From: Burkholderia sp. BCC0322
Lineage (GTDB): Bacteria > Pseudomonadota > Gammaproteobacteria > Burkholderiales > Burkholderiaceae
DNA: 64,000 nt
Direction of reading: 5' to 3'
NCBI RefSeq assembly: GCF_902833045.1
Contig: NZ_CADFDU010000013.1
Location: forward strand, 147,498 to 211,497
Part shown: piece by piece, positions 6,758 to 63,982 of the stretch
Numbering within the stretch: the first letter of the stretch is position 1
Layout: the number at the start of each line of letters is the position of its first letter
Position numbers and translations under genes: made by a program
The notes under the pieces: model-generated
What the model was told of the DNA's origin: nothing
What the model saw: only the letters and a program-made list of their open reading frames with translations
Databases searched by the model: none

Positions 6758-8182
<1,425 letters not shown>

Positions 8183-8205
8183 TCACGGACAAGGGCGAAG
8201 ATGAT

Positions 8206-8430: not shown

Positions 8431-8545
8431 AGCAATGCACCCGGCCGCGCGGCCATGCGCGGCCGACACCTCCGTATGTCGCCACGCGGCGGCCCGCTTT
8501 TCCCGCCGTGTGCGCACGGCTCGCCCCTTATTGAAGAAACACCCG

Positions 8546-34390: not shown

Positions 34391-38163
<3,773 letters not shown>

Positions 38164-38173
38164 GGCTGTAGGT

Positions 38174-38239
38174 TGTCAGAGATAGTGAAAAACGTGTCAC
38201 TGAGATGAAAAAAAATTCTCAGAGATCGTGAAAATTTGG
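38174..38239 (+). repeat. three repeats like TnsB-binding sites (island end)
   Basis: Three imperfect copies begin at 38174 (TGTCAGAGATAGTGAAAAA), 38195 (TGTCACTGAGATGAAAAAA) and 38217 (TCTCAGAGATCGTGAAAA), spaced 21 and 22 bases. Tn7-type right ends carry overlapping TnsB sites of about this spacing and begin with TGT. They start 10 bases after the gyrB stop, with tnsA to the right. No inverted partner was found in the window. IS21-type ends can look similar, which is the main alternative. Confidence 0.55.
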
Positions 38240-38249
38240 CCATTTTTGT

Positions 38250-38257
38250 AGCCCGGT
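38250..38257 (+). repeat. IS target-site duplication, left copy
   Basis: AGCCCGGT directly precedes the IS left terminus and recurs exactly at 39632-39639 after the right terminus. Eight bases is the usual duplication for this IS family. Confidence 0.85.
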
Positions 38258-39631
38258 GAACCTGTCCGCATTTTTGTGGGCGAAGCGGTTGAACAAGGTG
38301 TTATCCGCGCGCCTGCATAAAACGCTCACCGAACAGGATAGCAAACTGGTTCATCGCTGATTTCCAGTCGAAGGTCGCGCGCACGTTCTTGGCCAGCACG
38401 TTGCGCAGCGCGAGCCAGAGCAGCTTGATGGCAGCCTCGTCATTCGGGAAGTGACCGCGGGTCTTGATGATCTTGCGCAACTGCATGTTTAGACTTTCTA
38501 TGGCGTTCGTCGTGTACACAACCCGTCGAATCTCCGGCGGAAACACGAAGAACGGTATGACGTGCTCCCAGGCGCGCTGCCACGATTGCACGATGGTCGG
38601 GTATTTCTCGCCCCAGGGGCCGTCAGCGAAGTCTTGCAGCGCCTGTCTTGCCGCGTCTTCGCTGACGGCCGCGTAGATCGGGCGCAGTGCCTGCGCAACG
38701 GCCTTGCGGTCCTTCCAGCCGGCATATTCGAGGCTGTTGCGGATCAGATGCACGATGCAGGTCTGGACGGTCGTCCTGGGATAGGCCGCGCCGATCGCCT
38801 CGGTCAGCCCCTTCAGGCCATCGACCACGGCGATCAGGATGTCCTGACAGCCGCGCGTCTTGAGCTCGTTGAACACCTTGAGCCAGAACTTGGCGCCCTC
38901 GGTCTGCTCGATCCATAGTCCCAGCACGTCGCGCTGGCCGTCAGCCTGGATACCCAGCGCGAGATACACCGCCTTGTTGCTGACCACGCCGTCGTCGCGG
39001 ATCTTGACCCGCAACGCGTCGAAGAACACGACCGGATACATCGCCTCGAGCGGGCGGTTCTGCCAGGTCAGCGCGTCGGCCATCACCTCGTCGGTGACCG
39101 AGCTGATGAAATCGGGCGAGACCTCGGTGCCGTAGTGCTCGGCCAGAAACGCCTGAATCTCGCGCACGCTCATGCCGCGCGCGTACATCGCGATGATGCG
39201 CTCGTCAAAGCCGGTGAAGCGGCGTTCGTGCTTGGGGATCAGGATCGGCTCGAAGCTGCCGTCGCGGTCGCGGGGCACTTCGACCCGGACCGGGCCTCGA
39301 TCGGTGATGACTGTCTTGCCGCTGGCGCCGTTACGCTCGTTGGCTTGCCCGGCCGGCTTGGGCTGGCCCGGCGAGTAGCCCAGATGCAGATTCATCTCGG
39401 CGCCCATCGCGCGTTCGATGAGCGCCTTGTTGAACGCCAGCATCAAGTCCTGCACCTCGGCGGGCGACATCGGCCCCTTGACCAACTGGTCCAGCAATTC
39501 CTTGGGCAGTTCAGGCAGCGGCCCGCGGGCCGCTGCCTGTGAGGCTACCGTTCGTCTTTTCTGCTTCATCGGCATATCCATGATTTTTACCTCTTATGAT
39601 ATGCCCCGCCCACGAAATCACGGATAGGTCC
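38258..39631 (-). mobile_element. IS256-family insertion sequence, complete
   Basis: A 1374 bp element with imperfect terminal inverted repeats: the left end reads GAACCTGTCCGCATTTTTGT and the right end, reversed, reads GGACCTATCCGTGATTTCGT. It carries one intact transposase on the minus strand and is flanked by 8 bp duplications. With the IS removed, TAGCCCGG and CCGGGCTA rejoin as an 8 bp stem followed by TTTTATT, so it landed in the arm of a terminator-like hairpin. Confidence 0.9.
38301..39581 (-). CDS. IS256-family transposase
   Basis: A 426-residue Mutator-type transposase. The acidic triad appears in FFDALRVKIRD, AVVDGLKGLTEA and TTNAIESLN. The length and N-terminal ELLDQLV, LNLHLGYSPGQ and RRFTGFDERI segments fit an intact, probably active enzyme. 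The start at 39581 follows AGAGGT by about 8 bases. It lies fully within the two inverted repeats. Confidence 0.95.
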   Translation of the reverse strand: MDMPMKQKRRTVASQAAARGPLPELPKELLDQLVKGPMSPAEVQDLMLAFNKALIERAMGAEMNLHLGYSPGQPKPAGQANERNGASGKTVITDRGPVRVEVPRDRDGSFEPILIPKHERRFTGFDERIIAMYARGMSVREIQAFLAEHYGTEVSPDFISSVTDEVMADALTWQNRPLEAMYPVVFFDALRVKIRDDGVVSNKAVYLALGIQADGQRDVLGLWIEQTEGAKFWLKVFNELKTRGCQDILIAVVDGLKGLTEAIGAAYPRTTVQTCIVHLIRNSLEYAGWKDRKAVAQALRPIYAAVSEDAARQALQDFADGPWGEKYPTIVQSWQRAWEHVIPFFVFPPEIRRVVYTTNAIESLNMQLRKIIKTRGHFPNDEAAIKLLWLALRNVLAKNVRATFDWKSAMNQFAILFGERFMQARG

Positions 39632-39639
39632 AGCCCGGT
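39632..39639 (+). repeat. IS target-site duplication, right copy
   Basis: AGCCCGGT, identical to 38250-38257, directly follows the IS right terminus. Confidence 0.85.
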
Positions 39640-40116
39640 CGACTACCCATGTCTTCCGGGCTATTTTATTCTACGGCGCCCCCGAGCTGGCAACGTTAAT
39701 GCAATAAATATTGCATATTGCACTAGTGAAAATAATCAGCGCACCAATAATCTCAAGGCATTGCATATATCACCCAGCAAGAGCAATTCTCGGCACAAAA
39801 ATACTGCAATAATCATTGACCGCGCGCCGACAATCAATAAAATAACGTCTTCGCTGGAAAAAGATGCTAATTTTAAGCAGGACTGTGCTTGCCGATTGAT
39901 TTTGCAGTGATCCAAAAACTGGAGGACAGAATGTAAAAACGGAGCAAACCCCCTATTGGAAGCTTGCCCCGCTGGTGGGAGCTGGCGCTACCCGATCTGG
40001 ACAATCGAAGTATCGTCAATCCCCCGCCTGCGGTCAAGTTTTTGCGCCCAATTTTTTCTGATCTCGCAAGTCGAGAGGGCTTAATACGCCCTTTTAATTT
40101 GCGATCGGAGCGAATC
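39640..40116 (+). promoter_or_regulatory. A/T-rich tns leader region
   Basis: About 475 bases upstream of tnsA without a gene. They include the right arm of the hairpin split by the IS (CCGGGCTA, 39656-39663), a palindrome ATGCAAT-AAAT-ATTGCAT (39699-39716), and two copies of ATTGCATAT (39710-39718 and 39760-39768). These may be transposase or regulator sites and the tns promoter. A possible small ORF here has no ribosome site. Confidence 0.4.
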
Positions 40117-40815
40117 ATGCAAAACAAACCGCATGCCGCTATCAGTTCGATGGCTAGGCAGGGGATTCATCATACTCCTGCACGACACGTGGTACGGCCG
40201 ACCGGTGGGAATTTCCGTGGCTGGTTCCCTTCCTTAAAGTCAGGCAGATCAGTGGCGTTCGAGTCATTGATTGAGCGTGACGCTTTGCTTCTCTTCGAGT
40301 TCTCTCGCGGCATCGTCAGCTATCGAGAGCAACCTTACTCGATCTATTACTCGTTCAACGGTCGGTCGCGGAGATACACCCCGGACTTTGAACTCACTCT
40401 CGCCAGCGGCGCAGTGCTACTCATTGAGGTCAAACCAGAAGAACGAGCGCGCGCACCAGACGAAGACAAACGGCTTCGCCGAATCACCGACCATTTCGCT
40501 GAGTTCAGTGTGCCATTTCGAGTTTTGACGGACACCCAGATTCGTAGCGGAGCGCTTCTGTCGAACCTGAACACGTTGTTCCCTTATCTAAGTGACTCGA
40601 TGTCAGGGCTTCAACGACGAATGGCTATAGCACCGCTCCTCGACGAGCCATTCCTAACGGTCGCACATGCCCGCGCTCGTCTCGGATCGACCACGGAAGT
40701 TTGGCGGCTCCTCGCGCTCAATCTACTGTTCTGCGACCTACGTCAGCCGTTGAGCGACTCGACTGCATTGTCCGTACAAAAACGTGAGCCGAGCGATGAA
40801 GAGCTATATTTTTAA
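40117..40815 (+). CDS. tnsA: TnsA-like transposon endonuclease
   Basis: A 232-residue TnsA. The PD-(D/E)XK active site is visible as Glu53 (SLIERD), Asp90 (YTPDFEL) and Glu104/Lys106 (LLIEVKPEE), the set that cuts the 5' ends in Tn7. The C-terminal half is the helical domain that contacts TnsC. Having TnsA predicts cut-and-paste movement instead of cointegrates. CGGAG six bases before ATG 40117 sets the start; the frame is open for 51 more codons upstream. It overlaps tnsB by 20 bases. Confidence 0.88.
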   Translation: MQNKPHAAISSMARQGIHHTPARHVVRPTGGNFRGWFPSLKSGRSVAFESLIERDALLLFEFSRGIVSYREQPYSIYYSFNGRSRRYTPDFELTLASGAVLLIEVKPEERARAPDEDKRLRRITDHFAEFSVPFRVLTDTQIRSGALLSNLNTLFPYLSDSMSGLQRRMAIAPLLDEPFLTVAHARARLGSTTEVWRLLALNLLFCDLRQPLSDSTALSVQKREPSDEELYF

Positions 40816-42781
40816 AGTTGGGGTGTCCGTCGTGCTGGACGACCAAACTCATAGGATCGTGCATCTTACGGCGGATGGACTGATACACCTGATAGCAGTG
40901 TCCAACGGTGCAATGACAGTGACATCACTCTCCGAGCTGCAGAGGCAGTACCAATCTGGCCAGCTTCGCTTTTTGGACGAGGTCATGACTATAGGCGATC
41001 CAGCGCACGCACGGTTAGGGCGCCCGCTGTCGACGTTTCCTAGCGGTGTTCAAGAAAAGGCTATCCGAAAAAAGAGGTACCTTGACATGCTGCTTTCTCG
41101 TGGCCCAATAGTGTCGACGCCAACAGTACTTGCGCCGCTTATTCAGGAATGTGCACGAGAATTGAACGACCCTCATCCGCCAAGCACGATCAGTGTTTAC
41201 AGATGGGCTCGTCGAGTTTCACGCGCAGGTGGTGACAACAGGGCATTGATTGACCGGTTCGACCGCAGGGGACGTGGCAGCAGGCTACCCCTTACGAGTT
41301 TGACTTTGCTCCAGCAATCGATCGACTCAATATACATGGCGCGAGAACGAGGCTCTGTGACTGACGTGTGCGCTGATCTTCGCTACCGGGTAGATCGCGA
41401 GAATGAATTTCGCAGCGGGAACGACAAGGTTCCAATGCCGAGTCTCGCCACCGTGTATCGGGCGATCCGTTCACTTGATGCTTTTGACGTCACAGTGGCC
41501 CGCCGCGGAAAGCGCATAGCAAATATCACATTTCGCACGAGTGGTCTCGGCGTCCATGTTGAACGAATCCTTGAGCGCGTCGAGATCGATCACTCTCCTC
41601 TGGACCTTTTTGTGATCGACGAGAGGACGATGCTGCCTTTAGGCCGTCCGACAGTGACCATCGCACTTGATCGGTATTCGAGAATGCCAGTCGGTATGCA
41701 CATTGGATTTCAGGGGCCCTCAGTCCAATCCGTGCTGCGCTGCCTGAGGCACGCTGTAGTCCCTAAGGCGGACCTTCGAGATCGCTATCCGGACCTTCAG
41801 CATGACTGGCCATGCCATGGAAGAATCCGTGAACTTGTTTGCGATAACGGAATGGAGTTTCACAGTGACACGCTGAAAAGGGTTGGGCTCGAGTTGGGCA
41901 TGATGGTGACGTTTTGTCCAAAACGCCAACCGTGGTTCAAAGGCGCCGTTGAACGCTTCCTAAAGACGTTGAATTTTCAGTTTGCACACGCGCTGCCTGG
42001 AACGAGTTTCGCACGATGGTTTCATCGAGAGGACTACGATCCGCAGGAACAGGCATTGGTTACGTACGATCAGCTGATGCATGTTCTGACGCGCTGGATA
42101 GTAGATGTCTACGCACACTCCCTCCATCGAGGAATCCAAACTACACCACATGAGAAATGGGTTACGGGGGCAGCACATTTCCCCCCGGTTCTGCCGTCGA
42201 GCGTCGGAGACATCGATATCATGATTGGCGAGACGCAGACCCGAACTCTGTCTCATCAGGGCATTGAACTCGACAACTTACGCTACAACGATCCCGCACT
42301 TCTGCATATTCGCAGAAAACACGGCCCGCGAATCAAGGTCGACGTCATCGCGTATTTCGATGATGTGTCACGCATTGCCGTCATCGATCCCGACAGCAAG
42401 GTCCCCGTCATTGTGCCGGCACTTGACCAGGAATACGCAAATGGTCTAACGCGAGAGCAACACCGACTGCTATGTGCACGTGCGCGCGAGACCGGTAAAG
42501 GGCTAGTCGACCAAAGCGCCCTTGCGCGGGCGAAAGGCGAAATCCGAACGTTGATTTCTGAGTTTGCCTTGAGCAAGTCACAACGGAAGCGGCAAAGAAG
42601 TGCAACCTGGCGTGGCATTGGGACTGAGGCTGCGGACATATTTGCTACGCCGCCGACCAAGACACCGTCCACAAAGACCCAACCCCACTTTGAGACACAG
42701 TCGGCTGTTCCGGTGTCGGAACTACCAAAACTAACCGGGTTGCTGCTGGATAGTCCTCCGCGCGGAAAGGGTGCGTCATGA
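40796..42781 (+). CDS. tnsB: TnsB/TniA-like DDE transposase
   Basis: A 661-residue transposase of the Mu/Tn7 group. The DDE triad is Asp275 (FVIDERT), Asp350 (VCDNGMEF) and Glu386 (KGAVERF), with the normal 35-residue gap between the last two. N-terminal HTH domains for end binding and a C-terminal Mu-type beta barrel are present; a Pro/Thr-rich tail would contact TnsC. The start at 40796 gives MKSYIFKVGV; a GTG 12 bases earlier is also possible. Its stop overlaps the tnsC start by 4 bases. Confidence 0.9.
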   Translation: MKSYIFKVGVSVVLDDQTHRIVHLTADGLIHLIAVSNGAMTVTSLSELQRQYQSGQLRFLDEVMTIGDPAHARLGRPLSTFPSGVQEKAIRKKRYLDMLLSRGPIVSTPTVLAPLIQECARELNDPHPPSTISVYRWARRVSRAGGDNRALIDRFDRRGRGSRLPLTSLTLLQQSIDSIYMARERGSVTDVCADLRYRVDRENEFRSGNDKVPMPSLATVYRAIRSLDAFDVTVARRGKRIANITFRTSGLGVHVERILERVEIDHSPLDLFVIDERTMLPLGRPTVTIALDRYSRMPVGMHIGFQGPSVQSVLRCLRHAVVPKADLRDRYPDLQHDWPCHGRIRELVCDNGMEFHSDTLKRVGLELGMMVTFCPKRQPWFKGAVERFLKTLNFQFAHALPGTSFARWFHREDYDPQEQALVTYDQLMHVLTRWIVDVYAHSLHRGIQTTPHEKWVTGAAHFPPVLPSSVGDIDIMIGETQTRTLSHQGIELDNLRYNDPALLHIRRKHGPRIKVDVIAYFDDVSRIAVIDPDSKVPVIVPALDQEYANGLTREQHRLLCARARETGKGLVDQSALARAKGEIRTLISEFALSKSQRKRQRSATWRGIGTEAADIFATPPTKTPSTKTQPHFETQSAVPVSELPKLTGLLLDSPPRGKGAS

Positions 42782-43758
42782 TTGATCGACAGCCCAGCGA
42801 TGACTACTACGCCAGGGTGCGCAAAGTAGAGCGGATCCTCATTCCTCATCGACAATTCACGGTCGTGGTTAATCGCTTGCAGCACGTACTTGACTTGGCG
42901 CGACACGATGCGGACCCACGCCATACCCTCCTTGTGGGCGAGTCTGGAACCGGTAAGACATGGATCGCGCGCTATCTCCGGTCGATACTGCCGGAAACCG
43001 AAAACGACGGTATACGAGTCAAGCCAGTTCTTGTTGTGGAAACGCCCACGTCACCGACATTGAAGAGCCTCGCGCAGGCCATACTGGTTGCACTCGGAGA
43101 CCCGCTCGCAAGCCTTGGCAACGCTGAAGTCAAGAGGCTAAGGGCGCTGGCGCTCATTCGCCAGTGCCGAGTACAGATGCTCATTGTTGATGAGCTTCAG
43201 CATTTCCTCGATCACGGCTCCCACAATTCACCTCAATCTGTAGCCGATTGGCTAAAGAATTTCGTGGAGGATGCGCAGATACCATGTTTGCTGATGGGGC
43301 TGCCGAGATCAACAGCTATTCTTGCGCTTAACGAGCAACTGCGACGTCGATTCTCTGCTCGCATAGAGCTTCTTCCGTTCTCAATCGAGCGCGATGAGGA
43401 AGAGATGGAGTTCCGGTCAATATTGAATGCGTTGGACGAAATGCTTCCCTCTCGAAGTCGCTCAGGACTTGCCGAGCCCGAAATTGCGCGTCGGATATAC
43501 ATGGCAACCAACGGTCTTATCGGATATGTCCGAAGGCTAACAACCGGTGCGTATGAACTGATGGAAGCTGCGAACCGATGCAGTATCGATCAGGAATTGC
43601 TACAAGAGGCTTTCACCCAAGAGATCTGGCGAGGTGGGCAGGATGAGCTAAATCCATTTCATTCGAAGTTTTCGTTTCGACGTCTGGATCGACCAGGGGA
43701 GCCGTTCGCGCCCACAAGTCGTCGGGGTGAAACCCGGGGCACACGAGGCGGTTATTAA
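42778..43758 (+). CDS. tnsC: TnsC/TniB-like AAA+ transposition regulator
   Basis: A 326-residue AAA+ ATPase with Walker A GESGTGKT at 54-61, Walker B MLIVDELQH near 140, and a sensor region GLPRSTAILALNEQLRRRFS. TnsC proteins link the target selector (TniQ/TnsD) to the TnsAB transposase and give target immunity. It overlaps tnsB by 4 bases, and tniQ follows 10 bases after its stop. The size is nearer to TniB than to the 555-residue Tn7 TnsC, placing this element among the shorter Tn7/Tn5053-like types. Confidence 0.9.
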   Translation: MIDRQPSDDYYARVRKVERILIPHRQFTVVVNRLQHVLDLARHDADPRHTLLVGESGTGKTWIARYLRSILPETENDGIRVKPVLVVETPTSPTLKSLAQAILVALGDPLASLGNAEVKRLRALALIRQCRVQMLIVDELQHFLDHGSHNSPQSVADWLKNFVEDAQIPCLLMGLPRSTAILALNEQLRRRFSARIELLPFSIERDEEEMEFRSILNALDEMLPSRSRSGLAEPEIARRIYMATNGLIGYVRRLTTGAYELMEAANRCSIDQELLQEAFTQEIWRGGQDELNPFHSKFSFRRLDRPGEPFAPTSRRGETRGTRGGY

Positions 43759-43768
43759 AAGATCATCC

Positions 43769-45634
43769 ATGAAATCATCTTTGATTAATCTCCCACCACC
43801 TCACCCTTTCGAAAGCGCTCAGGGATTTCTTCTGCGATTGGCAGAAGCCAATGCCTATCCCAGTGTCGAGTGGCTGCAGCGCGTCGACGGTCTCCAAGTG
43901 CAACTTAGGGCTCTAGTGGGCACTACCGTTTTTGGATTCGTACCCAAATGGCTCGACATATCCCAAACGCACGCCGTAGTTCCGTCGGCGTTCGAACAAA
44001 GGTTCTGCCTCGGGCGGCGAGCACGATGTTGCGCTGCATGCCTGTCGGCGGCGCCATACTGGCGAGCGATATGGGAACATCGGCTGTATGTCGCTTGCCA
44101 CCTACACGGCATGCAGTTGGTAAGCACATGCCATGCGTGCGGAAGCGCACTCTCTTGGAAGCGCGCATCCATGACGAGATGTCACTGCGGGAGCGAGATC
44201 TCATCATGGGAACAACTCGAAGCGTCTCACGTTAGCGTGGACGTTGCTCAGCATATCTGGCGCGCGTTTGTGAAAGTGATAGGTATGTCGAACGACGCCG
44301 AGCGTTTACAGGTTGGCGTACTCGATGGTGTTAGCCTTCCTTCTATTGCGTCGTTAATTTGCCAACTTGGAGCGACGACAGAGACCACAGAGCACATGCT
44401 GTCCCCCAAAGTGTGGCGCAACCTCACGTCATCAGACACGCACCGCCTCATAGCCGGTGCCTATTCGCGCCTGACTGACTGGCCACTCAAGTTTCACGAC
44501 TTCCTTCGCGAAGAAGATCAATCTATTGAGGACGACACCGTAGCGTTGCGGCCATCACCGCGCGTGCGCCGATTGAAGAAGTTCCTATTTTCCGAGCTGC
44601 CACCTGATCTGAACTTCCTGCTCGACGGCTTTCGCGGATACATGCGAGATCAGTCCTTGCGTACTCTGGACCATCGCCATCCTTGGGCAACCGAGGACGA
44701 TATCCAGTCACAGGCATACGTAGCAGCAAATGTTGCTGCGCGCCAGCTTGGAATTCGCGTTTCCACGTTGCATGCGTTGGCCACAAGGGTCGACGTCAAG
44801 GAGATTCGAAAGCCGGGGCGCACGAGGCGGCAGTTTACCCTTATCCAGCGAACCGCACTATCGTCGCTTAGGCAATATCTTACGAACGAAATAAGCCTTC
44901 GGGCCATGAGCAAACTTCTCGGAATCTCGGCCTCGAGGGTAGAACAACTTGCCGACGTAGGAATGCTAACGCGGAGAACAGTTACACACGGAATGGTCTC
45001 AACGTCCCTTTTCCAACGCCGTGAGGCATTGGCATTGATCGATAGCATCAGAAGTGGTGGATTTGCCTCGGCATGCACAGATCAAGAAATCTCGATCGCT
45101 GAAGTATGTAGATACTTTCTCTCGCAACGAGCAGATTTCGTATCCCTTGTCCGGGCAATGCAAGAACGGCGCATCGTCATAAGGAGGTGGAACGAGAATG
45201 CTCCCGGCATCGGAGGAGCGACTTTCAGCCGTCGAGAGTTTCTCAACTGGCATCGACGACAATGTTGCATGGGAGGTATGACAGTTTCAGAGGCGGCTGT
45301 CCATCTTCATGTCAAACAAGAAGTGGCGTATCACCTGGTCAAATCGGGTCTATTGAGAGGAAGTGTAGCTGTTCGTGGACGACGAACCGCCATATTGATC
45401 ACGTCGGACTCGCTTTCGGACTTCGAACAGCGCTATATTTCCTCAGTCGAGCTTGCTGTTGAAATATCGCTGTCAGCCGTAGAGGTCGTAGCAGTTCTTT
45501 CTGATCTCGGTGTATCGCCGATTTGCGGACCACGATCGGACGGTAGCCGTCAAAACTTCTTTCGACGTAAGGATGTGGATCTCGTTTCGGAAGCGCTAAA
45601 GGCTTTTGCCGATGCCAGAGCAAGTCATTTATAG
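43769..45634 (+). CDS. tniQ: TniQ/TnsD-like target selector
   Basis: A 621-residue protein. The N-terminal TniQ domain shows PHPFESAQGFLLRLAEANAY, and its zinc fingers appear as CCAACLSAAPYW..H..C, then CHACGSALSW and CHCGS (about 88-155). A long helical C-terminal part has at least two HTH-like segments (ARQLGIRVSTLHALA; AMSKLLGISASRVEQLADVG). Like TnsD, it probably binds a fixed chromosomal site, and the site used here would be in the 3' end of gyrB. It starts at ATG 43769 with no strong ribosome site, so coupling to tnsC is likely. Confidence 0.85.
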   Translation: MKSSLINLPPPHPFESAQGFLLRLAEANAYPSVEWLQRVDGLQVQLRALVGTTVFGFVPKWLDISQTHAVVPSAFEQRFCLGRRARCCAACLSAAPYWRAIWEHRLYVACHLHGMQLVSTCHACGSALSWKRASMTRCHCGSEISSWEQLEASHVSVDVAQHIWRAFVKVIGMSNDAERLQVGVLDGVSLPSIASLICQLGATTETTEHMLSPKVWRNLTSSDTHRLIAGAYSRLTDWPLKFHDFLREEDQSIEDDTVALRPSPRVRRLKKFLFSELPPDLNFLLDGFRGYMRDQSLRTLDHRHPWATEDDIQSQAYVAANVAARQLGIRVSTLHALATRVDVKEIRKPGRTRRQFTLIQRTALSSLRQYLTNEISLRAMSKLLGISASRVEQLADVGMLTRRTVTHGMVSTSLFQRREALALIDSIRSGGFASACTDQEISIAEVCRYFLSQRADFVSLVRAMQERRIVIRRWNENAPGIGGATFSRREFLNWHRRQCCMGGMTVSEAAVHLHVKQEVAYHLVKSGLLRGSVAVRGRRTAILITSDSLSDFEQRYISSVELAVEISLSAVEVVAVLSDLGVSPICGPRSDGSRQNFFRRKDVDLVSEALKAFADARASHL

Positions 45635-45684
45635 TCAGACTCTCTGCTCAGGTGTATTGGCCTCTACTGAGAAGGAGGAAGAGC

Positions 45685-46155
45685 ATGGGCACTTTGCATC
45701 CATGGGAACGTAAAATCTTCATCGACACGGAATTTACGGATATTGCGACTCCACGCTTAATTAGCTTGGCCATGGTTGCTGAGGACGGCCCTGAGTTTTA
45801 TGCTGAGCAAGCAGACGTGGACAGCCACGCTTGCAGTCCCTTTGTTCAGACCTATGTCTTGCCACAACTCGGTGCGGATCCGACGCGTGTAATGGACCGA
45901 GTAGCGTTGCGTGAGGCAGTACGAATTTGGATGTCAAAGTTCACTGGAAAAACGCAGCGACCGGTGATTTGTTACGATCACCCCGTTGATCTACAGCTGC
46001 TGTGGGAGCTCCTCGGCGAACGAACTGTTGGCTGGAAAGTAAAGCTCATCAGCTCAAGAATTGATTCCACCGCGAAGGAGGAATATTTTGCGGTGCATGG
46101 AGAACGTCACCACGCTCTTCATGACGCGCGTGCAAACCGGGCTGCATACCGATAG
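45685..46155 (+). CDS. DEDDh-type 3'-5' exonuclease-like protein
   Basis: A 156-residue RNase H-fold exonuclease. The acidic residues are in FIDTEFTD (D and E of ExoI), CYDHPVDLQLL (ExoII) and HHALHDARANRAA (ExoIII, giving the H and D of DEDDh). The enzyme class removes nucleotides from RNA or DNA 3' ends with two metal ions. A strong AGGAGG lies about 7 bases before ATG 45685, so it is well translated. It is the first cargo gene after tniQ and 112 bases before the OLD-helicase pair. A role in defence is inferred from position. Confidence 0.75.
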   Translation: MGTLHPWERKIFIDTEFTDIATPRLISLAMVAEDGPEFYAEQADVDSHACSPFVQTYVLPQLGADPTRVMDRVALREAVRIWMSKFTGKTQRPVICYDHPVDLQLLWELLGERTVGWKVKLISSRIDSTAKEEYFAVHGERHHALHDARANRAAYR

Positions 46156-46267: not shown

Positions 46268-48580
46268 ATGCATCTTCATTCGTATAAGATCAGAAACTAT
46301 CGGCGACTGCGCGACGTACGCATTGAGCTTGCATCCGACATCTCCATTTTCGTTGGCTCGAACAACAGCGGCAAGACTTCCGCGACGCAAGTCCTTCACG
46401 CGTTTGTGTCCGGCGCAAAAGATCGATTTTCGCTTTACGACTTCAGCTCATCATGTTGGAAGATATTCGACGAACTTGGGGAGCTTCAGAGTGGCGGGGA
46501 AGCACCTTCATTACCGTCGATCAGTCTCGACCTCTGGTTCGAAGTCAGCGCGCACGATCTTTACCTTGTCATTCCGCTACTACCGAGCACCTCGTGGCAT
46601 GGAACTCAAGTTGGAATGCGCATAGAATTTTCCCCAAGAAGTCCGATTGAGCTTATCGAAAAATTTCGCACGATACGCGCCGATGCCCAAGCGAAGGCCG
46701 CCGCACTTGAGCACCGAGAAAATGAAAAGTACGTCCCGTGGCCGAAGAGCCTGACTGACTATCTTAAAAATGAACTACTGAACGAGTATGAATTTCAGTA
46801 TTTTGTCCTCGATCGTGCACAGTTCAACGACCAGCACGAGGCACCGGCAGACTATAAGCCTCTACCACTCGCCAAGGATCCTGGTGGCGGGGCAATTTTG
46901 CGTTCTCTGATCAAGGTTGATAACCTAAGCGCTCAAAGACATCTCGCAGATCCAACCGGCAGTGCCAGCGGGACAACCGGAAGGGCTGAGGACCTGTCCA
47001 GGAGGTTGAGTCGATTTTACAAACGGAATCTTGATCAACGCCAAGAGGACCATAAGGCGCTCCGAGCCCTATTCGATTCCGAGATCGGACTTAACGAGCA
47101 TCTCGCCGACGTCTTCAAGGGTACTCTCAACCGACTTTCCAAACTCGGCTATCCAGGCCTGCACAATCCTCGCCTTGAAATTAAGTCAGCGCTCAATCCC
47201 GCGTCCATAATGAGCAGCCAAGATACGCGTGTGCACTATATTCTTGGTGACGGTGACAACGCGTTGCAACTTCCGGACACATATAACGGACTCGGTTTCA
47301 AAAACCTTATCTATATGGTTGTTGAAATACTTGATCTTCATGCCAGATGGGTTTCTGACAAAGAGCAGCGCGCACCACTCCACCTGATGTTTATCGAAGA
47401 GCCGGAGGCCCATTTGCACGCGCAGTTGCAGCAGGTGTTTATTCGCAACGTACTTGAACTTGTCAAGGCCAGCACGGAAGACGGAAGTGCATTTCAGAGC
47501 CAACTGGTCGTGACAACACACTCCTCCCACATCTTGTACGAGCGGGGCTTTAAGCCGATTAGATACTTCCGTCGGCAATCGCTAAACGACGGCCAATCCA
47601 CCAAGGTCCTCAATCTCTCTGCCTTTTACGACCAGAATCCGGATGAGCGCGAGTTCCTTCAGCGATACTTGAAGCTGACCCATTGCGATCTCTTTTTCGC
47701 AGACGCCGCTATTCTGGTCGAGGGGAATGTTGAGCGTCTCCTGTTACCCGTGATGATCGAGAAGGAAGCCAGCTCGCTACGTTCAGCCTGTCTTTCCATT
47801 CTTGAGGTCGGCGGTGCGTTCGGGCACCGGTTCAAATCGCTGGTCGAATTTCTCGGCCTGATCACGCTCGTCATTACTGATCTGGATAGTGTAGCGGTTA
47901 CCGGTGTCGCAGCAGCACCTGGCGCGGCCAACGCGGAAGTCACGGATGACGAAGACGACGGAACCGAATTTGAGGTGCCGAACGACACGCCCGGCCAACC
48001 CGCCGTAAAGAAGTCTGGCTCTGCCTGCCTTCCATCGATTCCGGGAGCGCTTACGTCGAACCAGACGTTGATCCAGTGGCTTCCCGCCAAGCAAACTATC
48101 GCTGAGCTGCTTGTCGCGACCGAGGACGAAAAACTGAAGCAGGCTGCGGGGGGAAAAGGTTTCCGAGTACGAGTGGCTTATCAGGTGGCGACTGACGTGA
48201 CGTGGAACGGTGCGACGGTGAACCTTTGCGGGCGCACGCTGGAGGAGGCGTTCGGCCTTGAAAATGCTGCATGGTGCCAGGATGTCACCCAGCGTCATCT
48301 CGGCCTGAAGCTGAAAAGCGCTCCTGTCACACCGGATGCCCTCGCTGAGGGGCTTCACAAGCGCGTCGGAGGGAAATCGTTCGACAAAACAAAGTTCGCG
48401 CTTGGAGTGCTGACTGAACAACCGTCGAGCTGGACAGTGCCCCTTTATATCAAGCAGGGCCTTCACTGGTTGTCCAGCGTTGTAAGCTTGGAGATACCTG
48501 CACCGTTACCGGAAACGACCGAACCCGCCGCTGCAGCTGCGGCCGCCCCCGAGCCCACGCCAGACGGAGCACCCGCATGA
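46268..48580 (+). CDS. OLD-family ATPase-TOPRIM nuclease (GajA-like)
   Basis: A 770-residue class 2 OLD nuclease. The ABC-type ATPase has Walker A GSNNSGKT (30-37), signature NGLGFKNLIY (340-349), Walker B FIEEPEAHLH (375-384) and TTHSSHI. The TOPRIM nuclease has Glu485 in LVEGNVE and DLD at 538-540. It is longer than typical GajA (about 580) because of an acidic insert near 550-590 and an A/P/E-rich tail. Its stop overlaps the helicase gene by 4 bases, the Gabija arrangement, so anti-phage activity is likely. Confidence 0.85.
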   Translation: MHLHSYKIRNYRRLRDVRIELASDISIFVGSNNSGKTSATQVLHAFVSGAKDRFSLYDFSSSCWKIFDELGELQSGGEAPSLPSISLDLWFEVSAHDLYLVIPLLPSTSWHGTQVGMRIEFSPRSPIELIEKFRTIRADAQAKAAALEHRENEKYVPWPKSLTDYLKNELLNEYEFQYFVLDRAQFNDQHEAPADYKPLPLAKDPGGGAILRSLIKVDNLSAQRHLADPTGSASGTTGRAEDLSRRLSRFYKRNLDQRQEDHKALRALFDSEIGLNEHLADVFKGTLNRLSKLGYPGLHNPRLEIKSALNPASIMSSQDTRVHYILGDGDNALQLPDTYNGLGFKNLIYMVVEILDLHARWVSDKEQRAPLHLMFIEEPEAHLHAQLQQVFIRNVLELVKASTEDGSAFQSQLVVTTHSSHILYERGFKPIRYFRRQSLNDGQSTKVLNLSAFYDQNPDEREFLQRYLKLTHCDLFFADAAILVEGNVERLLLPVMIEKEASSLRSACLSILEVGGAFGHRFKSLVEFLGLITLVITDLDSVAVTGVAAAPGAANAEVTDDEDDGTEFEVPNDTPGQPAVKKSGSACLPSIPGALTSNQTLIQWLPAKQTIAELLVATEDEKLKQAAGGKGFRVRVAYQVATDVTWNGATVNLCGRTLEEAFGLENAAWCQDVTQRHLGLKLKSAPVTPDALAEGLHKRVGGKSFDKTKFALGVLTEQPSSWTVPLYIKQGLHWLSSVVSLEIPAPLPETTEPAAAAAAAPEPTPDGAPA

Positions 48581-50520
48581 CTAGCCGCGCCAATCAACGA
48601 GATACAAATGCGGATGTCGAACTCTACGAGTGCCTGAATGCAAAGCCTCCGCGCAGTTTCATGATGATCGCGGGCGCAGGGTCAGGCAAGACGACATCGC
48701 TGATCAAAGGGCTCACCGAAATCCTCCGCAGCCACGGCGAACAGCTGAACCTCCGGCGTCAGAAAGTCGCCTGCATCACGTATACCGAAATTGCAGCAGG
48801 TGAAATCTGGGCTGATGTCGGTAACAATCCGCTCGTGCATGTGTCCACGATTCACAGCTTCCTTTGGTCGCTGGTCCGTTCTTTTCAATCCGACATCCAG
48901 CAATGGGTCGTAGGTCGCATCGACGAACGCATTACCCAACTGCGCGCGACAGCAGCCGGGTTCGGGCCAAGAGTTCAGCAGCGTACTCGCGACAAGAACC
49001 AAAGCGATATAGATCGCGCGGAAGCCCAGCTGGCACGCATAGGTCAGGTTAAATCATTCACATATGGCACGGGCAGTGACTATCTCAAGGGTGTACTAGG
49101 TCACGACGATGTCATCAAGATGGTGCCGCAACTGATCAGTGAGCGTCCGTTGATGCGGAGCCTGCTTGCCTATCAATATCCAATTCTGTTCGTCGATGAA
49201 AGTCAGGACACAATGGACAACGTTGTGGAGGCCTTCAAAGCGGTCGATCATGATTTCGGTGACAGGTTCTGTCTTGGCTTCTTTGGAGACCCGATGCAGC
49301 AGATTTACGCAACTGGAATAGGAGCCATTCCGTTCGCCACAAACTGGGCCAACATTACAAAGCCGGAAAACTTCCGCTGTCCGACAAACGTGCTTAATGT
49401 CGCCAATGCGATTCGCAGAGACGGAGATGGGTTGGTGCAAACTCGCGGGAGGACAACGGGAGAATCGGGGGCTGAAGTAAGCATGCCCGGGAGCGCGCAT
49501 TTGTTCATCCTACCCGTCGATGATCGACGCGATGAACGTCTCGCACAAGTTCGTGCTTGGGGGGCCGTAAATAACGACGACCCTCTTTGGAATCGGGATG
49601 CGCCGGATGACGCGGTCAAGGTTCTCGTTATCGTCCATCGGATGGCGGCCAAACGGCTTGGATTTGGCGATCTGTACGCGGCCTTGAATGACAATGCGCC
49701 TGATTCGTTCAAAAACGGCTTCCTTGACGGGACGGCCTGGCCCGTACGTCCTTTCAAAAGTTTTCTTCTGCCGCTTGCGGATGCGATTGCAAATGAGGAC
49801 GATTTCGAGGTGATGCAAGTTCTTCGAACACACTCGCCGTTATTGCGAAAAGAGAACCTTGGTGGTGTCAATGTTGCGGAGCGTCTGGCCACATTGCGCA
49901 CCTTCACGCAAGAGCTGAAAATAATGATGGAACCAGGTTCGAATGCGACGAACCGTGACGTGCTCCAGTCAATCCGCGATCTGCATATCATCGAGCTTGA
50001 TCCAAGGATACTTTCGTATCTGGAAATGCAAGACTGGGCGGAAGCCGGGGAGAACGCCGGTGCACAAGCTGAGCCAGAAGAGGATGGAGAGGATCTGACC
50101 AAGGAAATCTCCGCAATGGAAGCGTTTCTGGCGTGCCCGACGTCGCAGCTCTGGGGATACTACAAATACATCAACGACGAATCGCCATTTTCAACACAGC
50201 AAGGTATCAAGGGTGCCGAATTTGAGCGCGTGCTTGTCATTCTCGACGACGACGAAGGTACACACGTTCAGTTTTCGTACGAGAAGTATCTGGGAATAAA
50301 GCCACTGTCGACACGCGATCAAGCCAACCTTCGGGAAGGCAAAGATACGGCTGTCGAACGAACTCGACGGCTATTCTATGTCTGCTGTACGCGCGCATTG
50401 AAAGATCTGGTCGTCGTGTTGTTTACAGACGAAATTGAGACTGCTCGGCGGCACGTCGTGGAACGCGGAATATTTCCAGAGGAAGCGATTCATCTCGAGG
50501 CCGAGCTGAACGGATACTAA
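48577..50520 (+). CDS. UvrD/Rep-like helicase (GajB-like)
   Basis: A 647-residue superfamily 1 helicase. Motif I is GAGSGKTT (33-40), motif Ia is ACITYTEIAAGEI, motif II is FVDESQD, motif III is GDPMQQIY, motif IV-V is QGIKGAEFERV, and motif VI is RRLFYVCCTRA. It overlaps the OLD nuclease by 4 bases and is the expected partner, as in Gabija, where GajB activates GajA by sensing DNA ends. An acidic stretch (EPEEDGEDLTKE) near 510 is unusual. Confidence 0.85.
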   Translation: MTSRANQRDTNADVELYECLNAKPPRSFMMIAGAGSGKTTSLIKGLTEILRSHGEQLNLRRQKVACITYTEIAAGEIWADVGNNPLVHVSTIHSFLWSLVRSFQSDIQQWVVGRIDERITQLRATAAGFGPRVQQRTRDKNQSDIDRAEAQLARIGQVKSFTYGTGSDYLKGVLGHDDVIKMVPQLISERPLMRSLLAYQYPILFVDESQDTMDNVVEAFKAVDHDFGDRFCLGFFGDPMQQIYATGIGAIPFATNWANITKPENFRCPTNVLNVANAIRRDGDGLVQTRGRTTGESGAEVSMPGSAHLFILPVDDRRDERLAQVRAWGAVNNDDPLWNRDAPDDAVKVLVIVHRMAAKRLGFGDLYAALNDNAPDSFKNGFLDGTAWPVRPFKSFLLPLADAIANEDDFEVMQVLRTHSPLLRKENLGGVNVAERLATLRTFTQELKIMMEPGSNATNRDVLQSIRDLHIIELDPRILSYLEMQDWAEAGENAGAQAEPEEDGEDLTKEISAMEAFLACPTSQLWGYYKYINDESPFSTQQGIKGAEFERVLVILDDDEGTHVQFSYEKYLGIKPLSTRDQANLREGKDTAVERTRRLFYVCCTRALKDLVVVLFTDEIETARRHVVERGIFPEEAIHLEAELNGY

Positions 50521-50879
50521 TGCGACGATTGTTGCGTGCCATTCACCATCTGGGTCACCGGAGCAGGGACACAAAAGTCGATTTACTCTGCCAATGCGGA
50601 ACTATCTGACGGATCGCCGTTCGCCGTGGACTTCTCCGTAACTTTGATCAGAGTAGATCAATCGACAAAAGCGTCCGAGTGGTTAACAATGATCCGCCCC
50701 ATACGCTCCCGCATTGCTGTATGCCGTCGACCACTTATCGTTGAATGGCCAGCACGATGCGAATGAGCATCGGAGTGCAGTTGGCACGGCTGCTCAGATC
50801 CGTGACACGGCCTGAGCCGATCCGAGGGTTGTTGCTGTGCATTGGATAATTGCTAATTTTTAGGTTTAACAAACTGATT
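50521..50879. other. 359 bp with no recognised gene
   Basis: The interval between the helicase and the Mrr-like gene has intermediate G/C content. A frame at 50536-50766 lacks a ribosome site and resembles nothing. The last 40 bases are A/T-rich and may hold the promoter of the next gene. Confidence 0.4.
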
Positions 50880-51689
50880 ATGAAACCAGGAAGCTCACTC
50901 GAAAAGGACGTCCAACGAGTCTACACCTTTCTCCTCAACATGCGAGATGAGGGTGTTGTCGTCGGCAATCAGGTGTACATGACTGGAAAATCTGGAGAGC
51001 AACATGAGATCGATGTCTATTACGAGTTCTTAAAAGCCGGAATCCGACATCGCGTTGCAATTGAATGTAAAGATTGGGCAACTCCGATATCAAAAGGGGA
51101 GATCCGAGATTTTGAATCAAAATTAAGAGACATCGGGAATATCACTGGAGTAATCGTCTCCAGAAATGGATATCAAAGTGGAGCCGAGGGATTCGCCAAA
51201 TATCACGATATCCTGCCTCTAAAATTCGAAGACCTTCCGTCCTTCAACGTCTTGCTAGCTGCACGACTAAAGACAGTGGCCTTGCCAGACGAAACTTACC
51301 ACGGCGAACCATTCTGGACGATAATGGAAATCGAGGACGGAAAGGCTACTGGATCGCATTTTGCGACCCAGTTCTCTGGGAGTGGGAAGTTAGCAATCCC
51401 GCTTACGTACTCTCGACAACATGCTCTTCGTATCTTCAAAGAGGCGAATCTAGACCCTACGAGGTGGGCTGTCCGGGGACTGCCTCGCTTCGCTTTGCGT
51501 GCCTTTCTTATAACGCTTGAATTGTATGAGAAGAAAATGGGAGGTGGTGCCGTGATATGTTATCTACCACCCGGCGCCAAACCGAATGCTCAATTTATCG
51601 GAGTTCCAGCATCGCGCGACGATCTTATTCGAGAGTACTATGGCGAACCAATTCCATCAATAGAAGACGCCGTAAATCGTCATTCGTGA
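50880..51689 (+). CDS. Mrr-like restriction endonuclease
   Basis: A 269-residue protein whose N-terminal half is a PD-(D/E)XK nuclease domain: YMTGKSGEQHEIDVYYEF supplies the aspartate and RVAIECKDW the E-x-K, close to Mrr_cat. The C-terminal half (from about residue 145) is unrecognised and may sense the target. ATG 50880 starts before the domain; its ribosome site is weak. A gene with a HEPN-type motif follows 24 bases later and is probably co-transcribed. Confidence 0.75.
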   Translation: MKPGSSLEKDVQRVYTFLLNMRDEGVVVGNQVYMTGKSGEQHEIDVYYEFLKAGIRHRVAIECKDWATPISKGEIRDFESKLRDIGNITGVIVSRNGYQSGAEGFAKYHDILPLKFEDLPSFNVLLAARLKTVALPDETYHGEPFWTIMEIEDGKATGSHFATQFSGSGKLAIPLTYSRQHALRIFKEANLDPTRWAVRGLPRFALRAFLITLELYEKKMGGGAVICYLPPGAKPNAQFIGVPASRDDLIREYYGEPIPSIEDAVNRHS

Positions 51690-52544: not shown

Positions 52545-53705
52545 TTAAGCAGCGATTGCGCTTCGTGGCCGACTTCGCACGCCCCGAGAGTTGCGAACTG
52601 GTGCAACAGGCTCCGGAACGTCTGCCAATACGACATTTATCGCGCGTTCCGCCTTAACGCGTAGTGCACGCCCGTAGCAACTCATCCCTTCCCAGTCTAC
52701 TACCCGCTCACCGCTGGCGTTAGTCGTCACCGGAACCATGATGCGGGTCTTCCGCAGGCGTCCAAGCGTTGCGCCGTTTCCTCCCCAGCTGAACCGGCTC
52801 ATCTGCTGCTTGATGAGCGTCGACAGAACAAGCGCACTGTCAGCACACAGACGCTCATGCCGAAGCACTTGAATGTTCTGGCTCGTGTAGAACGCCATCG
52901 GTTGGTACGCGACGGTTTGGGTGTCAAGACCAATGGTGATTGCGTTTCCGGGCTCTGGGTTCTTCTCCTGACGAACACACGTTCCGTCGATCCCGTTGTT
53001 CTCACGAGTCCGAGACACAAACGGATACCGGCCCTCACCTGTCGGAACCAACTTCGACTTATCGTACCAGGCCGACGACGCCTTCATCGATTTGAAGACA
53101 TCGGTAATGAGCATCGGTTCAAAGGTGAACTCCGGCAACGTATCGTCATCGTCTGACGATGATACGCGAGCCTCGACCATTCGCTCCTTCGCAACTCTGA
53201 GCAACTCTTCACCCAGCCGCGTCATCCCTTCCCAATCGACGACATGCTCTCCGTCAACATTGGTTGTCATAGGAACCATAATCTTCTGGCGACCAAGCCG
53301 ATGCAACGTCAGCTTGTATCCGAACCCGAACTTCGGGACACATTGTTGCGTGAGCATGCTCGCGATCAACAGCAACGCTGGCTCAGTGGCCTGGTCGGAC
53401 AGCGGCTCAAGCGCGATGACGTCGTCCGACGCGCTGAACGGAGCGGGTTGGTATTTCGCGTGACCAGTTCCCCCGTCTCCGTTGTATATCAGCGTCACCC
53501 ACCCCCCTGGAAATAGTACAGGGGTATCAGCGAAATCGGTAATGCTGTTGTTCATTCTCGACGCGCCGACAAACGGTGTGGCTCCTGACTTTCTATGAGC
53601 AGCGATCAACCGTCTTCCCTTGTGAGCGTGGAAGAGTCCCGTCTGACGCCCCTTGACGTCAACAACATACACCGGGGCGAATGTCAGCTTTTCAAATGCG
53701 CTCAC
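52545..53705 (-). CDS. restriction-modification specificity subunit (HsdS/BcgIB-like)
   Basis: A 386-residue protein with two similar halves. Each has a target-recognition-type region and ends with a matching stretch: RQKIMVPMTTNVDGEHVVDW in the first half and KTRIMVPVTTNASGERVVDW in the second. This internal duplication is typical of specificity subunits that bind split DNA sites. Its ATG overlaps the stop of the nuclease-methyltransferase gene by 4 bases, as in BcgI-like systems. It sets which sequence the enzyme recognises; the site cannot be predicted from the sequence. Confidence 0.75.
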   Translation of the reverse strand: MSAFEKLTFAPVYVVDVKGRQTGLFHAHKGRRLIAAHRKSGATPFVGASRMNNSITDFADTPVLFPGGWVTLIYNGDGGTGHAKYQPAPFSASDDVIALEPLSDQATEPALLLIASMLTQQCVPKFGFGYKLTLHRLGRQKIMVPMTTNVDGEHVVDWEGMTRLGEELLRVAKERMVEARVSSSDDDDTLPEFTFEPMLITDVFKSMKASSAWYDKSKLVPTGEGRYPFVSRTRENNGIDGTCVRQEKNPEPGNAITIGLDTQTVAYQPMAFYTSQNIQVLRHERLCADSALVLSTLIKQQMSRFSWGGNGATLGRLRKTRIMVPVTTNASGERVVDWEGMSCYGRALRVKAERAINVVLADVPEPVAPVRNSRGVRSRPRSAIAA

Positions 53706-55693
53706 GTGCCATCTCCCTCATTCCGTCGCTCTTCTTTCGCGGACTTGATGAGATCGCCATTGCCGTGAGCGTGCATATCCACCTGCCAGACGAGGTAGTC
53801 GGCAACTGTCGCCATGAAATCTTCGACGGTCGGAGGTTGGTCATTGAAATAAAAGTACGAATGCTGCCATTCATCCTGCGCAGTGACCTCCGATCGCACG
53901 ATAAACCTGGTGTCATCGACGGCATCTCCTCGCAGCACCTCAAGCAGGTGCCTACGCCGCGACGCTGCTGTGCCGTCATCCGTAAGCCCCCGGTGCATCT
54001 GCACTTTGTATCCATCGTGCTGGAAGTTGACGAACTTCACCTTCGCATCCAGCGGATGCGGTCGTCCTGCCGTAAACAGCACAATCACCGCATGCACCCC
54101 AACGCCTGAGTCAGCAAAGGTTTCACCGTTCATTGTGATCACCGCGTCGAGCGTATGTTTCTTCAACAGTGACACTTTTCGGCCCTTGTCGTCCGTCGTC
54201 TTCCCGACCATAGCCGACTGCGGAACGATCGCTGCGAGACGACCACCGGGGTTGAGAAACTCCAGCGCTCTCTCAATGAATGCCAGTTCAGATAAGTGGC
54301 GCGTCGTCTTATCCTTTGCCTGCGAGTAAGGCGGATTCAGCAGCACCTTCGTGAAGCCGTGCCCAGGGATCCAGCTGCCCCCTGTACCACGCTTATCTCC
54401 ACGCATCTCATGCAAGGGAGCCTCAAAAATCGAGTCGCGACGGAAATTCGCCTTACCGTCACCACGCAAGATCATGTTCGTTGCACCAATGGCGAACAGT
54501 TTGTCCTGGAGCTCGATCCCGTGGAGTCGATTCTTGCGAATGTCTTCCCTCAAAATCTCGTCGTCGCCGGCGTCTTTGAACATTCGGTGCATCGCAGCGA
54601 TAAGGAACGATGCAGTACCTGCCGTTGGGTCGAGGACCCAATCGCCAGCACCAACGTCGATCAGCTCGCTCATTAGCGAAGTGACGTGTTCGGGGGTAAG
54701 CACGATGCCGAGTGTGTTGCCGTCTCCACCGCCGTACGAAATAAACTCGTGGTAGAAGTTTCCGAGCACATCGAACGAGCTCATCGTGGGGTCAGTGACG
54801 ACCTTCTGCACGTCTGACTTCAGGATCTGCGCGAACCACCTGAGCGGGGTCATCCCCAGCTCCTTATGTACGCGGTTCAATGCTGGCGATTTTTCGATGA
54901 ACGCGAACTGATCAAGCAGCGTACCGATCTTCTGCTGCGGCCCAAAACCCTTAGAGAGCATGTAGGCATGCGCTGCTTTGTAGATCCGAGCACCGTCCCA
55001 GTCGTCTGGTAAATTCTGGTCGTAAGATCCTTTCAGCTCATCGAGCTCGAAGCCCGGTTTCTCCAAGGCCAGCAGAATTGCCGACACAAGCGGCGCCTTG
55101 CGATCGTTCTCGACCGAGCCGTAGTTGCGCATTCCCTCGTGCAAACGCGAGGCAGCCGCCTTTACGGTGTCGAGCCTAACCTCCGCCTGCGGCTTATTCC
55201 CGAGCACCGCAACCGAATGGTATTCGCCGATCGCTTCTGCTCCGAAGACATCGAGATTGTCGAGGTCGTCCAGCAACTTGATCTGGCCGGGCCCGACGTA
55301 AGCTACTGCGATCTCATGGTGGTGCTCTTCTCCTCCGATGCCGACTGCGAAGATGCCCTTGTACGGCACACCGTTGCGCAACATCCCGCTCGCATAGTGG
55401 ACCGCGCCATTGAGCGCATAGTCCTGCCTGTACGGGAAGTCGGTATTCACCTCACCATCTTCGAGGAACCGTGTGAAACGCGTCTCCTTCTTGTCTTCAA
55501 CAATCACAATGAAGTGATCTACGACAAACACGAACTCCGGTTTGCCTTCGCCTTTTGCGGTCTTCGACTTGGAGCTGCCCGCGAGAGCATCACGCTTCCA
55601 CTTCGGCCCACCGTCCTGCTCCCACGGTCTCGTTACTCCGATATCGCGCAGGAGGTCGCGCACGAACTGATCGGTGGCCTTCTCGTTGCCCAT
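53702..55693 (-). CDS. BcgI-like nuclease-methyltransferase (type IIB/IIG R-M)
   Basis: A 663-residue fusion. Residues 50-70 (GKPEFVFVV then IVIVEDKKE) give a PD-(D/E)XK nuclease with Glu66 and Lys68. The middle part is helical. The N6-adenine methyltransferase follows, with SAM motif I DPTAGTASF (355-363), HGIELQ, and catalytic NPPY (453-456). A type I HsdM would lack the N-terminal nuclease, so a single-chain BcgI-like enzyme is the better call. It forms an operon with the specificity subunit; a DUF6471 gene lies 73 bases upstream. Confidence 0.8.
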   Translation of the reverse strand: MGNEKATDQFVRDLLRDIGVTRPWEQDGGPKWKRDALAGSSKSKTAKGEGKPEFVFVVDHFIVIVEDKKETRFTRFLEDGEVNTDFPYRQDYALNGAVHYASGMLRNGVPYKGIFAVGIGGEEHHHEIAVAYVGPGQIKLLDDLDNLDVFGAEAIGEYHSVAVLGNKPQAEVRLDTVKAAASRLHEGMRNYGSVENDRKAPLVSAILLALEKPGFELDELKGSYDQNLPDDWDGARIYKAAHAYMLSKGFGPQQKIGTLLDQFAFIEKSPALNRVHKELGMTPLRWFAQILKSDVQKVVTDPTMSSFDVLGNFYHEFISYGGGDGNTLGIVLTPEHVTSLMSELIDVGAGDWVLDPTAGTASFLIAAMHRMFKDAGDDEILREDIRKNRLHGIELQDKLFAIGATNMILRGDGKANFRRDSIFEAPLHEMRGDKRGTGGSWIPGHGFTKVLLNPPYSQAKDKTTRHLSELAFIERALEFLNPGGRLAAIVPQSAMVGKTTDDKGRKVSLLKKHTLDAVITMNGETFADSGVGVHAVIVLFTAGRPHPLDAKVKFVNFQHDGYKVQMHRGLTDDGTAASRRRHLLEVLRGDAVDDTRFIVRSEVTAQDEWQHSYFYFNDQPPTVEDFMATVADYLVWQVDMHAHGNGDLIKSAKEERRNEGDGT

Positions 55694-57697: not shown

Positions 57698-57716
57698 CGA
57701 TGGTCCTCGCCTCGTG

Positions 57717-63334: not shown

Positions 63335-63358
63335 CAACTAGGGGATTTGTATCGGCGA

Positions 63359-63604
63359 ACGCGTCGCGCCTTGCAATGACGTCGAATGCGAGCGAGTACA
63401 CAGCCAAGGTAGCAGGCCATAGACCCTTGTCGTACACGTCATCTCTTTGCAATCACGCCGGAACTGGCTTCGGCTCAGACAGCACGGCAATGTGCACCGT
63501 CCACGCGTTCATCTTTGCAACGCCGGCCTCAACCGCGTTGCGCAGGATATAGAACCCAGATGCCAGCGGGCGATGGGCCGGCCACACGTCCATGTTTGCA
63601 ACAG
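63359..63604. repeat. four imperfect 23-25 bp direct repeats
   Basis: Copies begin at about 63359, 63434, 63503 and 63584, with core (C/T)TTGCAA(T/C) preceded by ACRCGT. They are spaced 75, 69 and 81 bases. Two lie inside the zinc-ribbon gene, one spans its stop codon and one lies in the recombinase upstream region, so the similarity is not only a protein repeat. They are candidate binding sites for the ParB-like proteins or the recombinase. Confidence 0.55.
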
Positions 63605-63896: not shown

Positions 63897-63982
63897 GGCC
63901 GTGCTTGAGCGGCCCCCAGTAAACAGTGCCATGATGTAAGCGAGTTTTCGGCGGACTTTTTCAGTATGAAAGGAGCCGTACG

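Follow-up and report, generated by a model that had tools for sequence, protein, structure and literature searches.

What places a set of Tn7-like transposition genes directly behind gyrB in Burkholderia sp. BCC0322? The locus lies in a stretch of 64,000 nt from contig NZ_CADFDU010000013.1 (hereafter the window, to which all coordinates refer), where an initial annotation had described tnsA, tnsB, tnsC and tniQ reading away from gyrB and had proposed the 3′ end of that gene as an attachment site. The proposal is supported by linkage, unoccupied sites and target duplications in relatives (genomes, loci and contigs are designated below by G, L and C numbers). We consider it highly probable (roughly 0.9) that TnsD-type, protein-guided Tn7-like elements home to the 3′ end of gyrB and that the gyrB-proximal part of one such element lies in the window.

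Pfam searches confirmed all four transposition genes on the gyrB strand (Table 1), with the ATG at 40118 as the likelier start of TnsA. The TniQ protein has conserved cysteines in its TniQ domain, as judged by alignment, and a helix-turn-helix near the C terminus; its profile (A1) matched TniQ structure chains (best E = 2e-22) as well as the TnsD chain 8v32 (E = 0.002). A structure prediction from a two-sequence input had a mean pLDDT of 35.7 and was unusable. This TniQ is the putative selector of gyrB.

The gyrB stop codon is followed by GGC and then by TGTAGGTTGTCAGAGATAGTGAAAA, with related repeats as far as 38234. We place the start of the element at 38167 (TGTAGGTTGTCAGAG), 3 nt past the stop, because in two relatives, G125 and G050, the right ends show TGTAGGTT to be the terminal inverted repeat, and the 5 nt lying ahead of the left end recur just past the right end. 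GAGGC (38162–38166) is accordingly the candidate for the target duplication. This pentamer occupies the position held by GAGGG in G125 and GAGGT in G050, in both of which the second copy is present. The initial annotation was right that a transposon end directly follows gyrB, but its estimate of about 10 bases past the stop was 7 nt off, and the duplication that it expected near 38169–38173 gives way to GAGGC. An end at 38174 with TAGGT (38169–38173) as the duplication was considered and dropped, since the right ends of G125 and G050 include TGTAGGTT and TAGGT had no partner with a good end. Within the end, TGTCAGAGATnGTGAAAA occurs at 38174 and 38217 (2 matches versus 0.06 expected in shuffles), and the repeats are predicted TnsB sites. 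The same type of end was found in G388, G125, G076, L032 and L056. The element continues beyond 45634, as far as the window shows; no second GAGGC with an element end was found within the window, the right end lying beyond it.

Full-length TniQ relatives of more than 38% identity were found in three genomes (G388, G125 and G076), all directly after gyrB, and the gyrB proteins of the window and G388 share 97.7% identity. Caballeronia fortuita (G125; also L001) carries a 17.3-kb element with TGTAGGTT repeats and GAGGG at both sides, and the gyrB element of G050 (L073 with L127), 13.2 kb long, has its two ends and is flanked by GAGGT on either side. Since no tns genes were found in the G050 element, it was perhaps moved in trans or reduced.

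The comparison was extended to 43 gyrB regions, which were not a random sample: 32 were chosen for a TniQ near gyrB or an end-like flank and 11 for a nearby TniQ match. A complete element was defined as an end pair with at most 2 mismatches in 10 plus an exact 5-bp duplication. Such elements were recovered in 14 of the 43 regions (G125, G050, G134, G194, G253, G307, G114, G175, G322, G446, G645, G422, G669 and G519), compared with 3 hits among 860 control probe sets that were positioned at other points of these regions; the weakest, with 2 mismatches, were G114, G175, G322 and G519. The 5-bp duplication anticipated at the island ends is therefore present, in exact copies, around the complete relatives. 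Conservation of the gyrB 3′ end, which the initial annotation had assumed, was seen in a consensus of the last 60 nt over the 43 regions, with GGAATAT kept in at least 90%. Furthermore, tnsB was located in 38 of the regions, on the gyrB strand every time; it was not found in the stretch read of G050, G021, G060, G170 and G064. Only an end and TnsA fragments remain in G021, a decayed copy. In G060 and G170 (L075 and L076), an end-like TGTCGGGTGACACAG or TGTCACAGAAAGTGAAAA lies 8–15 nt past gyrB, and the stretch read showed no tns genes.

The distance between the gyrB stop and the element end varied with the type of end. Ends beginning with TGTAGGTT or TGTAGGAT lay mostly 2–4 nt past the stop (6 in G327, 9 in G519 and G627, 11 in G422), TGTAGC/TGTAGA-type ends 6–7 nt, TGCAGGGAAAC ends 10–13 nt and the CGTAGGGCGCC end 13 nt; TGTAG was present within 20 nt of the stop at 14 of 30 gyrB loci examined for it. 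In G050, G134 and G175 the right flank resembles yet another element end, suggesting that insertion was serial; with the slightly different offsets of the subfamilies, several elements could stack behind one gene.

Comparison of gyrB downstream regions with and without an element likewise supports an end just after the gene. To the right of the G125 element lie a terminator-like stretch and an HNH gene; a search for this flank among 58 genomes of the G125 genus gave a match in 17. Among the best 12 loci, which were analyzed and include G125's own, gyrB lay directly upstream of the G125-type flank in 10 of the 11 from other genomes; at the eleventh (L082) no gyrB end was recognized. These unoccupied sites place the G125 element end 3 nt after gyrB. 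Because the flank DNA matches were short (49 to ∼300 nt, 69–84% identity), the unoccupied-site genomes are congeners and not sister strains. For the 18.6-kb element of G134, the right flank matched G155 (94% over 195 nt) from 14 nt past the G155 gyrB stop; G155 is the counterpart of G134, but an imperfect virgin site, its flank itself resembling an older element end.

A TniQ match of some kind was present in 71 of 398 genomes of the family. Linkage was counted for the matches aligning at least 390 of the 635 residues (n = 34), within which identity to the window TniQ drops to ∼22%; 30 of these lay within 50 kb downstream of gyrB and on its strand, at distances of 4–41 kb. Relatives of the tns genes are not confined to other loci, the outcome that would have refuted the initial annotation, and do occur at gyrB. 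An order-wide search gave a match below E 1e-20 in 24 of 300 genomes, and outside the family, at E <1e-90, 10 of 11 genomes have a TniQ match with gyrB 4–26 kb upstream on the same strand, G674 being the exception. In G425 the gyrB-linked match is a second, weaker one (contig C9, E = 3e-56), the first match following msrB. A class-wide search yielded matches in 4 of 274 genomes, of which G001 and G446 were already in the set and G815 and G846 were weak and off the gyrB contig.

Several observations weigh against gyrB homing. The long match of G361 lies 66 kb from gyrB, and those of G144, G137 and G241 are on contigs other than that of gyrB; PF06527 matches occurred in 84 of 200 genomes, many of them away from gyrB; no complete end pair was found in 29 of the 43 regions; and the right end and second duplication of the window element lie outside the window, so that its boundaries are drawn from relatives. 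Nor does relatedness by itself determine the site, because two relatives follow lysS (G674) and msrB (G425). In G674 (L186, near 15064), the TGTAGGTTTGCAGAG end of the related element lies 25 nt past the lysS stop, and on contig C1 of G425 (L183) related tns genes follow an msrB-type gene (8115–8717), with end-like repeats, recognized by eye, right after the msrB stop.

A TniQ tree was built with 34 gyrB-linked rows and 16 of 20 other-site loci. Rows shorter than 450 aa or above E 1e-10 were left out, as were the 11 order-wide regions (10 other-family genomes and G203) and the other-site copies of G674 and G425. One supported set held 29 of the 34 gyrB-linked rows plus one other row (L159, on a long branch). 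The remaining five, which fall elsewhere in the tree, are the first TniQs of two-TniQ elements; in G194 and G253 this first TniQ represents a possible second targeting route. Two-TniQ versions were observed in G194, G253 and G175 (L072, L110–L112 and L068), with the first TniQ lying ahead of the second. We think it likely, with less confidence than for homing itself, that an old and diverse TniQ clade in Burkholderiales uses the 3′ end of gyrB as its main attachment site, that its subfamily offsets have drifted (2–4, 6–7 and 10–13 nt), that stacking builds the defense island there, and that individual relatives have changed over to lysS and msrB.

In the mechanism that we propose, a TnsD-type TniQ would recognize the conserved 3′ coding end of gyrB, to whose DNA it presumably binds, and would bring in TnsC, after which TnsA and TnsB would insert the element a few bp past the stop (2–4 in the window subfamily, up to 13 in others). 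The tnsA side faces gyrB, a 5-bp target copy would be formed, and gyrB is left intact; the element carries defense genes as cargo. It would be one of a gyrB-homing set found across the order, the members of which insert repeatedly behind the same gene.

An IS256-family insertion sequence, which the initial annotation had not mentioned and which is flanked by an 8-bp duplication (AGCCCGGT, 38250–38257 and 39632–39639), sits inside the transposon between the gyrB-proximal end and tnsA, and no IS256 match was found at the same place in G388, G125 or G076. This insertion, a right end not seen in the window and the existence of decayed copies such as G021 would fit a decayed, immobile remnant at a once-targeted site. 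We regard this as unlikely, as all four tns frames are open, the nuclease motif (found by script) and the DDE and Walker motifs (found by eye) are in place, and the end is preserved as in five relatives; the window element presumably is, or was, mobile.

It is less probable still that gyrB is bound by a further selector (a second TniQ, a TnsF-like protein or a cargo protein), with the long TniQ acting as a mere bridge. Two-TniQ versions do exist, and TniQ can serve as a hub for another DNA binder, e.g. TnsF in Tn6022, according to the pertinent passages of PMC10293859. On the other hand, the window element, G388, G125 and G076 each show a single TniQ, and gyrB linkage goes with the long TniQ set.

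A hot spot near oriC, where insertions would be drawn by an accessible, highly dosed region and not by recognition of gyrB, is very improbable. In many contigs gyrB ends ∼5 kb from the first base, as would be expected if numbering starts at dnaA. The ends lie at offsets of 2–13 nt from the stop and in one orientation, and a regional effect was rejected because regional preference would not yield base-level precision; the related elements at lysS and msrB likewise lie right behind a gene. RNA-guided homing to gyrB can be given hardly any weight: a guide RNA can send CRISPR-associated Tn7-like elements to chromosomal sites (PMC11406308, in its relevant section), but neither CRISPR-like repeats nor a guide resembling gyrB were seen in the window part or in the whole G125 element (longest run shared with the gyrB 3′ end 12 nt, shuffles 10–14), no Cas family was found among 19 window ORFs scanned with Pfam, and the TniQ has TnsD size and a helix-turn-helix. 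Protein guidance is the simplest reading of one 635-aa TniQ, a conserved gyrB 3′ end, a set offset and orientation, and no guide seen.

Table 1. Features of the gyrB locus and of the adjoining element in the window.
Feature	Position	Strand	Basis or remark
gyrB, intact	35662..38163	+	Gyrase B domains (Pfam), C terminus included; putative attachment site at 3′ end
GAGGC, candidate left copy of 5-bp target duplication	38162..38166	.	Overlaps gyrB stop codon
gyrB-proximal transposon end	38167..38234	+	Terminal TGTAGGTT and TnsB-site-like repeats at 38174, 38217 and 38195 (last by eye)
IS256-family insertion sequence, 1374 bp	38258..39631	-	Transposase 38301–39581 (-); Pfam Transposase_mut, NCBIfam IS256
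TnsA	39964..40815	+	PF08722, E 1e-10; nuclease motif PDF..EVK (by script)
TnsB, DDE transposase	40784..42781	+	Pfam: Mu-transpos_C above cut-off, rve below
TnsC / TniB AAA ATPase	42778..43758	+	PF05621, E 4e-31
TniQ of TnsD size, 635 aa	43727..45634	+	PF06527 and HTH_17
Small exonuclease-like gene	45652..46155	+	Pfam match below cut-off
Gabija pair (GajA 46268–48580, GajB 48577–50520)	46268..50520	+	PADLOC, E 9e-278 and 3e-245
Mrr-type restriction endonuclease-like protein	50850..51689	+	PF04471
Restriction-modification pair (specificity subunit and type IIG-like enzyme)	52545..55693	-	
McrC and McrB-like AAA protein	56423..59669	-	PF10117, AAA_5
RepB/ParB pair, large serine recombinase, small cysteine-rich protein	59923..63932	-	Pfam

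Beyond tniQ, the window encodes a series of predicted defense genes (Table 1), and Tn7-like elements homing just behind gyrB often carry anti-phage defense genes. The exonuclease-like gene lies beside tniQ in relatives too, with 75–78% identity in G125 and G388. The final module is 92.8% identical in DNA to G050 over 59923–63905, with divergence after 63905, and over part of 59923–63932 is ∼75% identical to G033 and G001. A RepB/ParB-recombinase module of this kind is common to gyrB elements with very different tns genes (75–93% DNA identity) and may be a co-travelling recombination unit. Similarly laid-out genes also follow the tns genes in G241 (L185).

Protein-guided Tn7-like elements use safe, conserved spots, few of which have been documented. 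If our reading holds, gyrB would join glmS as a landing pad of the same sort, and the clade would provide a natural series in which to follow changes of target by a protein selector, with the lysS and msrB relatives as a natural experiment in target switching. Nearly all bacteria have gyrB, so that a TniQ homing to this gene adds to the candidate landing pads for site-specific insertion. Homing to gyrB also helps to explain the accumulation of defense genes behind this gene in the order. Finally, parE is a paralogue of gyrB, and parE-homing elements raise the question of whether gyrB and parE selectors share a common origin.

An earlier sighting may exist in Pseudomonas putida HB3267. A Tn7-like transposon is reported at B479_00025–B479_00140 of that genome and carries metabolic cargo, its attachment site being unnamed in the passages of PMC4731212 that describe it. 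With locus tags counted in fives, and if the gene order is dnaA-dnaN-recF-gyrB, it would possibly lie just behind gyrB. In the open-access literature, as distinct from subscription papers, preprints and supplementary tables, we found no paper naming gyrB as an attachment site, in keeping with the initial annotation, which did not count gyrB among the well-established Tn7-like sites. Nor is it named in the pertinent passages of PMC12452197, PMC10702557, PMC7031236, PMC10333322, PMC9727169 and PMC12350285.

The window contains several hallmarks of a Tn7-like element, namely TnsA with TnsB, TnsC/TniB, a protein of the TniQ/TnsD family and repeated end sequences; site- and orientation-specific insertion is seen by comparison across relatives. 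Like Tn7 at glmS, the gyrB elements combine TnsABC with a TnsD-type TniQ and have a conserved essential gene as target, behind whose 3′ end they insert in one orientation; TnsD of Tn7 binds the coding end of glmS (PMC2918618, in the part concerned). They differ from Tn7 in their target, in inserting 2–13 nt past the stop as opposed to ∼20 bp, in the terminal TGTAGG of the window subfamily, in a TniB-like TnsC and, in many gyrB subfamilies, in cargo lying between the gyrB-side end and tnsA. No TnsE family was found by Pfam among the 19 window ORFs scanned, the element extending beyond the window. A Cupriavidus Tn7-like element located away from attTn7 has two tnsD genes and no tnsE, as far as the relevant passage of PMC3384475 describes it. 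Tn6022 and the comM elements are Tn7-like with comM as a fixed target and a tyrosine-recombinase-like TnsF (PMC10293859, in part), whereas no TnsF-type family was present among the window ORFs scanned. Tn7-like transposons with defense cargo were described by Benler et al. 2021 (PMC8649781, in the sections concerned) and resemble the gyrB elements in carrying defense genes; gyrB and gyrase are absent from that main text. Some I-F3 CRISPR-associated elements use a parE-targeting TnsD, as outlined in the relevant part of a review (PMC11406308), so that a TniQ/TnsD protein directs insertion beside parE; the elements described here have gyrB as target, and no CRISPR-Cas part was seen. The parE-homing elements are the nearest precedent for the gyrB-homing elements.

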